8,214 nt of DNA from a bacterium (GTDB taxonomy: Bacteria > CG2-30-53-67 > CG2-30-70-394), in contig JAJRSX010000081.1 of the NCBI GenBank assembly GCA_024278555.1, positions 1-8,214 on the forward strand, read 5' to 3'. Of this stretch, positions 465 to 7,382 are shown one piece after another. Position 1 is the stretch's first letter. Each line of letters opens with the position of its first letter. The translations under genes were made by a program, and so were the position numbers. The notes under the pieces were generated by a model. It made no database searches. It saw only the letters and a list, made by a program, of their open reading frames with translations, and was not told the origin of the DNA.

Positions 465-1208
465 TCAGCCCGCACGCACCGCCCGAAAGAGGGCACCGCG
501 CGTCATTGCGGAGGTGGCCATGGGGGTGGTACCCACATGTTCCACCTCGATGAACCCCACCTCCCGCAGGAGGGTGCCGAGATCCCCGACCGGGATCGCG
601 CCGCCAATTCACTGGGACCAGGCGTCGATGGAGCAGGTGTCCACCGAGGGGACACCGTCGGCGAGGCAGATGTCCGCCAGGTGGAGCCGGCCGCCGGGGC
701 GCAGGACCCGGTGGAGCTCGCGAAAGACCGCCTCCTTGCGCGGTGAGAGGTTGAGGAGACCATTGGAGGTGACCACGTCGAAGCGGCCGTCGGGATAAGG
801 GATCGCCTTGGCCGCGGCCACCCGCACCTCGGCGTGGCCGATCCCCGCCGCCGCCAGGTTGGTGCGGGCACGGGCGGCCATCTCCGGGGTCAGGTCGATG
901 CCGCACACCCGTCCCCCCGGCCCCACGAGGCGCGCCGCCACGAAGAGGTCGAGGCCTCCGCCGCACCCCACGTCGAGGACCGACTCGCCCGGTCGAATCT
1001 CGCCCAGGGCGAAGGGGTTGCCGACGCCACAGTAGGCGTCGAAGAGCGGCTCCGGAGCCGCGACCAGATGGTCCGCGTCGTAGCCAAGCACCTCCGCCCC
1101 GGCCCTCCCGGTGGTATAGGCAAAGCGGCCGGCCACGCCCTCCGCCACCGCGGCGTACTTCTGCCGTACCCCCTGTTGGATCGCCTCTACGTCGCGCTCG
1201 CTCGCCAT
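465..1208 (-). CDS. ArsM/UbiE-like SAM-dependent methyltransferase, probable selenoprotein (in-frame TGA 609-611 read as Sec)
   Basis: A 247-residue class I methyltransferase if TGA 609-611 is decoded as residue U200. Seen: SAM motif I VLDVGCGGG (77-85), GID (103-105), TPEM, SNGLLNLSP (148-156), the strand RVLRPGGRLHLADI (167-180), then D-A-W-S-Q-U-I-G-G-A-I-P and 47 more residues to a second TGA at 465-467. Human AS3MT has WGECLGGALY at this site, whose Cys (C206) is catalytic, so U sits at that position. The other arsenic-binding cysteines differ: the YGCG-type Cys is Val (C60 lies two residues earlier) and the SNC Cys is Gly (G150). The substrate is therefore open: arsenite, selenium or tellurium species, or something else. 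ATG 1208 follows the SHOCT gene stop by one base (TGAGATG) and has GGAG about 8 bases upstream. It is the last gene of the 2172-465 operon. Conventional annotation would stop at 609 (199 residues) and lose the C-terminus. A nonsense mutation or read error is the alternative. Confidence 0.82.
578..600 (-). promoter_or_regulatory. Candidate bacterial SECIS hairpin
   Basis: In the minus-strand transcript, bases 600-592 pair with 578-586: eight pairs with one C-U mismatch at 598/580. The five-base apical loop is GGUCG (591-587). Eight bases separate the UGA from the foot of the stem and 17 separate it from the loop. Bacterial SECIS elements lie within the coding sequence just after the UGA and present a loop G-U to SelB; the E. 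coli fdhF loop is GGUCU, 18 bases after its UGA. Loop sequence and spacing both match. No bulged U is evident in the upper stem, unlike fdhF. I folded this by eye and did not compute an energy. Confidence 0.68.
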
Positions 1209-1209
1209 C

Positions 1210-1440
1210 TCAGCTCTCCGTGAGGTCGTCTTCAAACTCTTCCCTGGAAATCTCGCCCCGCGCATACCGTGATTTCAAGATTTCCAGAGGTCGCTCTTGC
1301 GGATCGCGACGCCGATGGTGGCCACTCCACGGGGCGCACCCTGGGCCAATCCCACCTCGACCGAAGAGCAGAAAGACCTCCACCAGCATGGTGAGGGGGA
1401 AGATCCACATCCCACTGCCCCAGAAATATTCAGGACCCAT
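1210..1440 (-). CDS. SHOCT-domain small membrane protein
   Basis: A 76-residue protein. The N-terminal half has one membrane segment (MWIFPLTMLVEVFLLF, about residues 11-26), then a Gly/His/Arg-rich linker, then a C-terminal SHOCT motif: PLEILKSRYARGEISREEFED (about 53-73). SHOCT is a short oligomerisation-type motif at the C-terminus of many small bacterial membrane proteins, and no biochemical role is assigned. ATG 1440 was chosen because GAGGAG lies eight bases upstream and the family usually begins just before the membrane helix; longer in-frame starts add only low-complexity sequence. The start overlaps the end of the upstream winged-helix-like gene by 11 bases, and the stop is one base before the methyltransferase ATG, so all three are probably translationally coupled. 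SHOCT assignment is confident, function unknown. Confidence 0.85.
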   Translation of the reverse strand: MGPEYFWGSGMWIFPLTMLVEVFLLFGRGGIGPGCAPWSGHHRRRDPQERPLEILKSRYARGEISREEFEDDLTES

Positions 1441-1708
1441 TGTGGGGCTCCTCGCGCTTGGCCGGGGCCGGCCGTGCATACAGGGAAATTTTCCCCGCTG
1501 CGGCCATGCGGCCGAGGAGGTGGGCGGTGGTCACCGGTGCGAGGCCGAGGTGGTTGGCGATGGCGGTGAGGTCGGTCGGCTCGTCCTCCGCCAGATGGGC
1601 GAGGAGCTCCTCCTCCACCGTCGCCAACCAGTCGTCGAAGAGCGGCCGCAGCTCTGGGGCGGCAAGGGCGGTGGGATGAGGCTGGGTAGTGCATCCAACC
1701 GCCCCCAC
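1430..1708 (-). CDS. Small winged-helix-like protein, function unknown
   Basis: A 92-residue soluble protein from GTG 1708. After about 15 low-complexity residues comes an acidic helix (LFDDWLATVEEELLAHLAE), then a segment that reads like a helix-turn-helix with wing: DLTAIANHLGLAPVTTAHLLGRMAAAGKISLY (about 46-77). This resembles the DNA-binding half of small MarR- or ArsR-like proteins, but I do not recognise a named family. It lies between a DsrE protein (38 bases upstream) and SHOCT (11-base overlap), so it is cotranscribed. The only purine-rich Shine-Dalgarno, GGGGGAGGG, lies in one arm of a nine-base-pair hairpin just upstream of the GTG. A later non-canonical start is possible, because homology-like sequence begins near the Leu-Ala-Ala-Pro-Glu-Leu stretch. 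It could be a local regulator of the operon; that is inference. Confidence 0.68.
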   Translation of the reverse strand: MGAVGCTTQPHPTALAAPELRPLFDDWLATVEEELLAHLAEDEPTDLTAIANHLGLAPVTTAHLLGRMAAAGKISLYARPAPAKREEPHNGS

Positions 1709-5493: not shown

Positions 5494-5808
5494 CTACCCC
5501 TTACCGGTGCAACAGGTGGGCTCGGGCGATGCCTCCTCGACCTCCTCGTCGAGGAGGTCGAGGAGGCGCACGACCCGAGAGTCCTTCAAGAAATAGCAGC
5601 GCAGGCGGCCGTCCACGTAGAAGTCCACGACCCCTGCCTTGCGCAGAACCGCCAGGTGCTGGGAGACATTCGGCTGCGGCACACCGAGGTCGGGCTCGAG
5701 GTCGGAGACGCAGAGCGGCTCCCCCTCCGCCGCCAGCCGCTCGATAATCTTGAGCCGCGTGGAGTGGGCGACCACCCGCAAGAGCTGCACCTTGTCGTGA
5801 ACATCCAT
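5494..5808 (-). CDS. ArsR/SmtB-family transcriptional repressor
   Basis: A 104-residue winged-helix repressor of the ArsR/SmtB family. Domains: an N-terminal helix, then VVAHSTRLKIIERLAAEGE (about 12-30), the metal-site helix PLCVSDLEPDLG (31-42), recognition helix PQPNVSQHLAVLRKAGVV (44-61), wing FYVDGRLRCYFL (63-74) and a C-terminal helix ending in TCCTGKG. Classic arsenic sensors read ELCVCDL; here the second Cys is Ser, leaving C33, C71 and the C-terminal pair C99/C100 as possible ligands. This could be an alternative thiol site for As, Sb or another soft ligand, or a persulfide sensor. It is the first gene of the 5808-2728 operon and presumably represses it. The ATG has no Shine-Dalgarno, and a TATTAA box lies only 18 bases upstream, so translation may be leaderless. 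Confidence 0.93.
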   Translation of the reverse strand: MDVHDKVQLLRVVAHSTRLKIIERLAAEGEPLCVSDLEPDLGVPQPNVSQHLAVLRKAGVVDFYVDGRLRCYFLKDSRVVRLLDLLDEEVEEASPEPTCCTGKG

Positions 5809-6045: not shown

Positions 6046-6663
6046 TCACCCCTGCTCCGGCTTGGGCGGGCGGGGGAGGTCGAAGCGGGCACGGCAGGTG
6101 CAGTAGCTCTGGCCGCCGAGGCGGCCGATCGGGTCGAGGGGGCTCGGGTCGATGCGGCCGCCGTTCCACACCGCCTCGCGCACGTGGTAGCGGAGGATGG
6201 TGGCGAGGATGAGGTGGGCGCCGCGGTCATCCTCGGCGACCTCGACCACCTGGCGCAGACGACACTCCATGGCGATGGGCGCCTCCGCCACCCGCGGCGG
6301 CTTCACCACCTCCGAGGCGACCGCGGTGAAGCCGCAGGCGGTGAGCTCGTCGACCTCGGGCGGGTAGTCGGCGGAGCAGGCGACCATCCGCTCGGCCATC
6401 GATCGATCGACCATGTGGATCACCAGCTCGCGGGTGGCGACGATGTTGGCGTAGGTGTCCTTCTCCGGTTGGCGGCGTCCCACCGAGAAGCAGAGGGTGG
6501 GGGGGGTGGAGGCGACGCCGGTGAAGTAGGAGAAGGGCGCGAGGTTGACCACCCCCTCGGCGGAGCGGGTCGAGACCAGGGCGATGGGGCGCGGCTGGAT
6601 ACAGGCGAGCTGCAGGAGGTAGGCGCGCGTCGGGTTGAGGGAGGCGGGGTCGAGGGAGATCAC
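6046..6663 (-). CDS. Flavin reductase-like domain protein (FMN-binding split barrel)
   Basis: A 205-residue member of the flavin reductase-like family (DIM6/NTAB type). The N-terminus MISLDPASLNPTRAYLLQ and the FMN-binding stretch PRPIALVSTRSAEGVVNLAP (about 26-45), followed by FSYFTGVASTPPTLCFS, are characteristic. Later parts are typical split-barrel strands (IAMECRLRQVVEVAEDDRGAHLILATI). These proteins bind FMN and either reduce flavin or use it in hydride transfer; the substrate is unknown. The GTG start at 6663 overlaps the DsbA-like stop by four bases (GTGA), showing translational coupling. It is the last gene of the 7736-6046 operon. The length is normal for the family and no break is seen. 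Confidence 0.93.
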   Translation of the reverse strand: MISLDPASLNPTRAYLLQLACIQPRPIALVSTRSAEGVVNLAPFSYFTGVASTPPTLCFSVGRRQPEKDTYANIVATRELVIHMVDRSMAERMVACSADYPPEVDELTACGFTAVASEVVKPPRVAEAPIAMECRLRQVVEVAEDDRGAHLILATILRYHVREAVWNGGRIDPSPLDPIGRLGGQSYCTCRARFDLPRPPKPEQG

Positions 6664-7382
6664 CGCGCCACCACCTCGGGGACGTCGTCGTCGCAGCCGT
6701 TCGCCTCATCGTCGTCGTCCATCGCCGCCCCCTCGATCTCGCCCAGCGCCGCCTGGACCGCCTTCTCGTAGATCGCCAGGGGCTTCGCCCCCTTGATATA
6801 GAGGCCGTTGACGAAGATCGCCGGTACGCCGGTGGCGCCGATATCGAGCATCTCCCGGGTCTCCCGTTGGATCTGATCGCGGAAGCGGCCGGTGGCGAGG
6901 TCGTAGTTGAACTGCACCATGTCCAGGCCAAGGGACTGGGCGTAGGCGTCGAGGTCCTCGCGGGTGAGGGCGTCGCGGAAGGCGAAGAGGAGGTCGTGCA
7001 TCTCCCAGAACTTCCCCTGGGCGCCGGCGGCGAGGGCCGCCTCGGCGGCAAGCTGGGCGTGCTTGTGGAGGTGGGGCAGGGGGTGGTTCTTGAAGACCAG
7101 GCGGACCTTGTCGGGGAAGCGGGCGGTGAGCTCCTTCATGGTGTCGTGGGCGCGCTTGCAGTAGGGACACTCAAAGTCGGAGTACTCGACCACCACCACC
7201 GGCGCGTCCGCCGGCCCCTTGGAGGGGGCGTCGCCCACCCGAATCGGATAGACTGCCCCAGGGACCGCGCGCTTGATCGACGGTTTGGGCGTCGCCCGCT
7301 CGGCCGGCGACTGGCCCGGCAGCCACTGGGCGCAGGCGGATAGGGGGATGAGGAGGACGGCGAGGAAGGTGAGGGTGCGCAT
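6660..7382 (-). CDS. DsbA-family thiol:disulfide lipoprotein
   Basis: A 240-residue thioredoxin-fold protein. The signal peptide ends in a lipobox LSAC with Cys17 and is followed by Ala, so it should be an outer-membrane or periplasm-facing lipoprotein by the enterobacterial rule. The active site is FECPYC (C72, C75), and the cis-proline loop is TGVPAIF (P187) before VNGLYIKGAKP. The helical insert between them fits the DsbA/FrnE-like DsbA-type proteins often annotated as DSBA oxidoreductase. It should catalyse disulfide exchange or reduction in the periplasm. The C-terminus is an unusual acidic tail (MDDDDEANGCDDD) with an extra Cys. ATG 7382 lies 15 bases after the VOC stop with no clear Shine-Dalgarno. 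It overlaps the flavin reductase start by four bases. Confidence 0.93.
   Translation of the reverse strand: MRTLTFLAVLLIPLSACAQWLPGQSPAERATPKPSIKRAVPGAVYPIRVGDAPSKGPADAPVVVVEYSDFECPYCKRAHDTMKELTARFPDKVRLVFKNHPLPHLHKHAQLAAEAALAAGAQGKFWEMHDLLFAFRDALTREDLDAYAQSLGLDMVQFNYDLATGRFRDQIQRETREMLDIGATGVPAIFVNGLYIKGAKPLAIYEKAVQAALGEIEGAAMDDDDEANGCDDDVPEVVAR

Follow-up and report, generated by a model that had tools for sequence, protein, structure and literature searches.

Selenoproteins classed as arsenite methyltransferases have been listed since 2007-2008 (Fomenko 2007, GOS 2008). Eight sequences are given in PMC2398784, and the group stands among the verified selenoproteins in PMC9312934 and PMC13188914, both of which cite Fomenko 2007; fused double selenoproteins (NF041537, NF047649 and NF041536) are attributed to Haft and Tolstoy 2025, as quoted in PMC13188914. 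For the canonical enzymes, all three cysteines are needed to convert As(III) to MMAs, while those at positions 174 and 224 are needed for MMAs to DMAs (PMC6950371). An arsenite methyltransferase from Thermus works with a single Cys, two His serving as further ligands (PMC8649762). The gene described here is therefore not the first of its kind; it is a further, stand-alone example of a selenoprotein that is already known. An original prediction made for this DNA could not say whether the family had been reported, and both the literature lists and the NCBIfam models place it on record.

The window, by which is meant the whole stretch of 8,214 nucleotides that was analysed, carries the gene on its minus strand:

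465 to 1208, minus strand: predicted gene for a selenocysteine (Sec)-containing ArsM-like SAM methyltransferase, 247 amino acids with U200, terminal TGA at 467-465 (readthrough translation, Pfam, NCBIfam, structure model)
609 to 611, minus strand: TGA predicted to be read as selenocysteine, U200, in the column of CmArsM Cys224 (same-column TGA in the clade, alignment to ArsM structures in the PDB)
465 to 608, minus strand: post-UGA C-terminal coding segment, 47 codons and stop (as conserved as the segment before the UGA; pN/pS below 1 in every pair tested)

The frame opens with an ATG at 1208 and runs for 199 codons to the TGA at 611-609 (codon 200), then continues for 47 sense codons to a second TGA at 467-465, the readthrough protein ending in FRAVRAG. 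The original prediction had these two TGA codons and the 47 codons between them in place, and both the peptide that it quoted (IGGAIPVGDLGTLLREVGF) and its length of 247 residues are correct; the strand it left unstated. The readthrough product is a class I SAM methyltransferase with Pfam methyltransferase domains. U200 lies within the W-x-x-C motif, here WSQU-IGGA, and an alignment that is free of gaps across residues 142 to 233 of the query sets it against Cys224 of CmArsM (PDB 5eg5/4fr0), in agreement with the proposal that the TGA falls on the third arsenic-binding Cys. An AlphaFold model, calculated with Cys in place of Sec, has a mean pLDDT of 89.5 with the lowest values near residues 190-200 (54), and its best matches in the PDB are the ArsM enzymes 4fr0, 6cx6 and 5evj; 205 residues superpose on 4fr0 with a Z of 24.6, an rmsd of 2.3 and 28% identity.

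The best NCBIfam matches are to three ArsM-type selenoprotein models (E 2e-84 to 3e-73). None reaches its cut-off, since the C-terminal extensions of these models have no counterpart in the window protein. It scores 283.1 bits against the 510 of NF041537 (ArsM/AhpD, ArsM_AhpD_UU) and ends after the methyltransferase, with no AhpD domain or second Sec; 260.7 bits against the 460 of NF047649 (methyltransferase/UXPK-star, MTase_UXPK_star), with FRAVRAG-stop rather than U-x-P-K-stop at its end; and 246.6 bits against the 575 of NF041536 (ArsM/DUF2284, ArsM_DUF2284_UU), whose C-terminal second domain is missing. The arsenite methyltransferase selenoprotein (PRK11873/NF008823, motif UxxG, WP_011987699.1) likewise combines the ArsM fold of a SAM methyltransferase with Sec in the column of Cys224, but the window protein reaches only 184 bits against its cut-off of 263 and has no equivalents of Cys72 and Cys174. 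A further Sec at the second TGA, in the manner of the fused families, was rejected; since the sequence beyond this codon is unconserved and lies antisense to a convergent open reading frame at 1-417, it is most likely a real stop. Also rejected was the use of TGA as a general sense codon: the window gene terminates in TGA, as does a paralogue, 74% identical and on another contig of the source genome, and this genome encodes tRNA-Sec and SelB.

The residues that bind As(III) in canonical ArsM/AS3MT enzymes set the window protein apart from them, and three further codons on the minus strand are of interest:

1023 to 1025, minus strand: codon of Val62, in the column of CmArsM Cys72, ligand lost (alignment and clade table)
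759 to 761, minus strand: codon of Gly150, in the column of CmArsM Cys174, ligand lost (alignment and clade table)
1029 to 1031, minus strand: codon of Cys60, in the [FY]CGVGNPF motif of near relatives, Cys in 58% of the clade (clade table)

The ArsM/AS3MT family is recognised by a class I SAM methyltransferase domain with the ArsM fold, which the protein has in common with CmArsM (4fr0) and CrArsM (5evj), and by three, or at least two, arsenic-binding cysteines. In their place (CmArsM Cys72, Cys174 and Cys224) the alignment gives Val62, Gly150 and U200; two of the three As(III) ligands are absent and the third is predicted to be Sec. The original description of this residue as the third, catalytic arsenic-binding Cys therefore stands as far as the column is concerned, but the first two cysteines are lost throughout the clade and arsenic chemistry is not established.

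Relatives were tabulated from about 650 sampled genomes and from one pattern scan of a species-representative collection. Among these sampled relatives all 46 proteins with Gly150, the in-genome paralogue included, have Sec (an in-frame TGA) at position 200 and none has Cys; the 68 with Cys150 comprise 58 with Cys at 200 and 10 with TGA. When separating columns were defined as those at least 90% fixed in the Gly150/Sec clade and below 20% in the Cys150 set, columns 62, 150 and 200 were the only ones in the whole protein to distinguish the clade from ArsM. The Gly150/Sec set forms one side of a branch with support of 100/97, and the window protein, with Gly150 and TGA200, falls inside this clade, which is a grouping made in this analysis. 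The AhpD-like (L138, L140, L147), UXPK-like (L141, L142, L146, L167) and DUF2284-like (L144, L168, L169) tails all belong to members of the same clade. In one further case (L125 / L135, G038:C268) a Gly150/Sec ArsM-like domain continues in the same frame into a radical SAM domain (Pfam E 1.1e-15).

Sec proteins with Cys150 occupy another part of the tree, where they are nested within Cys proteins. This separate lineage (L170-L178 and L180, in Thermodesulfobacteriota-sample genomes) has Sec at the same column but keeps the equivalents of Cys72 and Cys174, and the tree needs a separate change to account for it. The positions of the two Sec groups therefore suggest that Sec was taken up at least twice, a single origin followed by loss being less probable. 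Another hairpin-like sequence follows the UGA in these genes. We found no statement in the literature that ties Sec strictly to the loss of two arsenic ligands, Haft and Tolstoy 2025 being known to us via PMC13188914, and no novelty is claimed for this link.

The genes around the Sec methyltransferase include two of particular note:

1210 to 1479, minus strand: small SHOCT-domain protein, directly upstream of the Sec gene (Pfam SHOCT, E 1.4e-8)
5494 to 5808, minus strand: ArsR/SmtB-family metalloregulator (NCBIfam NF033788 above cut-off; Pfam HTH_5)

Two DsrE-like proteins, a multihaem cytochrome and a fatty-acid-hydroxylase-type membrane protein are also encoded in the window. A locus from another phylum (L002) has the hydroxylase, SHOCT-like and ArsR-type genes in common with it, including a SHOCT-like C-terminus just upstream of the Sec gene, and there the Sec methyltransferase adjoins an intact VTT-rhodanese gene and an RND-type efflux protein. 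The paralogue, on contig C48, is near a MerR-type regulator. Judged by gene content, the neighbourhood is compatible with metal(loid) handling; it names no substrate. The ArsR/SmtB regulator has a CC pair near its C-terminus (EPTCCTGKG) and a weak similarity to TsoR. The protein encoded at 1430-1708 on the minus strand matches the C-terminal part of TsoA weakly (E 1.7e-8, short of the cut-off) and lacks the LULAXC part; TsoA is an already named selenoprotein from another Sec neighbourhood. At 6660-7382 on the minus strand is a DsbA-like lipoprotein akin to the Rcas_1661 (seleno)lipoprotein family, and its CPYC motif identifies it as a Cys form. The plus strand at 2241-2614 holds remnants of a VTT-rhodanese membrane protein, with most of the VTT part lost and changes of frame; an intact copy is present at L131 6847-7980. 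Between the window and L131 (source genome C48:18000-37000) there are at least 8 blocks of 59-730 bases with 74-91% identity in rearranged order, and the locus of the Sec methyltransferase is thus a duplicated and shuffled segment.

With Cys72 and Cys174 lost, Sec is the only conserved chalcogen ligand left, which makes arsenite doubtful as the substrate. In the clade, no further His or Cys that might act as a ligand is conserved at the 95% level: Cys60 is present in 58% and Cys82 in 78%. Cys60 is accordingly a weak candidate to substitute for the Cys72 ligand. We propose, tentatively, that a widespread clade has traded the three-Cys arsenite site for one obligate Sec and that its substrate is not arsenite; candidates would be organomercurials, dimethylated arsenicals and other soft metal(loid)s. 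In that case the arsenite methyltransferase names of the clade's fused members would be wrong. The three-thiol As(III) site has shrunk in this clade to a single selenol, with Val in place of Cys72, Gly in place of Cys174 and Sec in place of Cys224, and the selenolate would anchor a soft metal(loid) through one Se bond and present it to SAM for methylation. Our best guess is that the candidate substrates are a methylated arsenical or other organometal(loid), bound in monodentate fashion. Substrates that have a single free valence, such as organomercurials and dimethylated arsenicals, would suit a lone Se ligand better than arsenite would. A substrate other than arsenite is a possibility that stops short of being probable; bidentate or tridentate binding of arsenite, as in classical ArsM, is unlikely.

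Alternatively, and in line with the original prediction and the NCBIfam names, the protein may be a plain arsenite methyltransferase whose third Cys is Sec, carrying out the classical ArsM reaction at a higher rate or a different redox potential. The top family matches are named arsenite methyltransferase selenoproteins, the predicted structure has the ArsM fold and an ArsR-family regulator is close by; further, the single-Cys enzyme of Thermus shows that loss of ligands is compatible with arsenite as a substrate. That enzyme (TtArsM of Thermus thermophilus, PMC8649762) is reported to methylate arsenite with one Cys, but it is distant in sequence and has two His ligands, and its Cys77 need not correspond to Sec200; in the clade studied here no His or additional Cys is conserved at the 95% level. 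The clade-wide absence of Cys72 and Cys174, when the published work requires three cysteines for As(III) to MMAs (PMC6950371), stands against the classical chemistry, as does the fact that the separate Sec-ArsM lineage has kept both. The source genome, moreover, already encodes a homologue that retains the three cysteines of ArsM (L217), so that the Sec enzyme is probably not its sole arsenic-type methyltransferase. The plain arsenite methyltransferase is a rather unlikely explanation.

Whatever the substrate, UGA codon 200 is almost certainly decoded as selenocysteine in a 247-residue ArsM-like protein, a conclusion drawn from comparative sequence data. The paralogue has a TGA at the same codon, a column that it has retained in spite of independent synonymous divergence from the window gene. 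The same-column TGA is seen in two genomes of the same class as the source and in relatives from Brocadia, a deltaproteobacterial MAG, Uabimicrobium, Geobacteraceae, Delongbacteria and other Planctomycetota. One other genome (G061, C146 and C142) also has two Sec paralogues of the clade, whose identities with the window protein are 56% and 55%. The downstream peptide (about 46 codons) is 43-85% identical between pairs of relatives, a level like that upstream: identities before and after the TGA are 73 and 77% for the window gene and its paralogue, 57 and 57% for the window gene and L102, and 87 and 85% for L102 and L103. Values of pN/pS were below 1 on both sides of the TGA in every pair tested (0.19 before and 0.16 after for L102-L103); for the window gene and its paralogue (L124) the value is higher after the TGA (0.55 against 0.39), over 47 codons, and the other pairs do not have such a difference. 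The downstream part is therefore translated and selected as protein. A functional product that ends at codon 199, with readthrough minor or regulatory (selenium-dependent isoforms), could be imagined, as decoding of UGA by SelB competes with termination in bacteria generally. It is very improbable here, since the residues after the UGA are constrained like the rest of the protein and form an ordered helix and strands, of high confidence, in the model.

A candidate for the signal that directs decoding lies shortly after the codon:

581 to 597, minus strand: putative SECIS hairpin, GAUCCC-GGUCG-GGGAUC (fold, fit to the bSECIS model, compensatory changes, codon conservation)

The stem starts 11 nt after the UGA and the loop, GGUCG, 17 nt after it; the stem has 6 bp and the energy is -9.2 kcal/mol. 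The bSECIS model (PMC13188914) describes a spacing of 16-37 nt, a G in the first two loop positions, a stem of 4-16 bp and an energy below -7.5, and the hairpin has the loop G, a stem of 6-7 bp and a spacing of 17-18 nt. By itself it is not unusually stable (z -0.26), an equally stable hairpin following 6 of the 148 TGA triplets in this GC-rich window. Stability is thus uninformative and the case for a SECIS rests on conservation. The hairpin is retained among 11 near relatives whose genes range from 41 to 72% GC, and in this near subclade double compensatory changes are found at 2 of 7 pairs; in L003 two base pairs are changed on both sides, with Arg to Trp and Asp to Asn as a by-product. Of 205 six-codon stretches of the gene, the one that makes up the hairpin has the highest same-codon usage (0.76, against 0.37 elsewhere). 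In 15 relatives outside the near subclade (the sister subclade) a different hairpin is found at 23 nt; 98% of its cells are paired, and double changes occur at 4 of 8 pairs in 8 cells, a result reached by 0 of 500 shuffles. These comparisons show a hairpin of SECIS geometry to be kept across phyla, with compensatory changes in the stem and constraint on synonymous sites. Rfam, searched at gathering threshold, gave no match in the window; given the diversity of bacterial SECIS elements, this is no argument against a SECIS. Across the aligned loci (among them L138-L149, L105, L166, L112 and L125) the spacing is 17-18 nt in one subclade and 23 nt in others, and two spacings in one protein family indicate that the RNA element has moved along the gene.

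The source genome (3.06 Mb, 211 contigs, 100% complete) encodes selA (541 bits), selB (326 bits) and selD (357 bits), all above the family cut-offs, together with a tRNA-Sec (77 bits, also above its cut-off) whose anticodon is TCA by ARAGORN, i.e. tRNA-Sec(UCA). The selD frame itself has one TGA, with U in the active-site stretch DCAGUASK, and SelD is thus a selenoprotein too. SelA was present in 8 of 10 genomes checked, these being carriers or relatives of carriers; selA was not found in the draft genomes of two relatives (G060 and G064), perhaps through incompleteness of the drafts. In the proposed mechanism tRNA-Sec and SelB would decode UGA codon 200, guided by the hairpin 17 nt downstream. 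The original prediction had suggested that homologues be aligned at position 200 and the genome searched for selA, selB, selC and selD; the column holds Cys or U (TGA), all four genes (selC as the tRNA-Sec) are present, and its reading of a Cys-to-TGA change as the mark of a selenoprotein is backed by this machinery, by the same-column TGA in many phyla and by the SECIS-like hairpin, and thus by each of the computational checks able to overturn it. That the gene is instead decaying, with the TGA a nonsense mutation or sequencing error, has next to no probability in spite of the decayed VTT-rhodanese sequence at 2241-2614, being refuted by the recurrence of the TGA in independent genomes, namely in the paralogue and in relatives of several phyla, with conservation beyond it and a conserved hairpin.

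Genes of this type are usually annotated as cut at the TGA, and the key residue is lost. In the Sec-only ArsM branch the gain of Sec and the loss of two arsenite ligands are coupled without exception in the sample, which opens to direct experiment the question of whether a single selenol can stand in for a three-thiol metalloid site. Since two arsenic-ligand cysteines are lost across the clade, "arsenite methyltransferase" may be the wrong name for its members, and the fitness of this label for Sec-clade proteins in surveys of arsM likewise becomes a question that can be tested.
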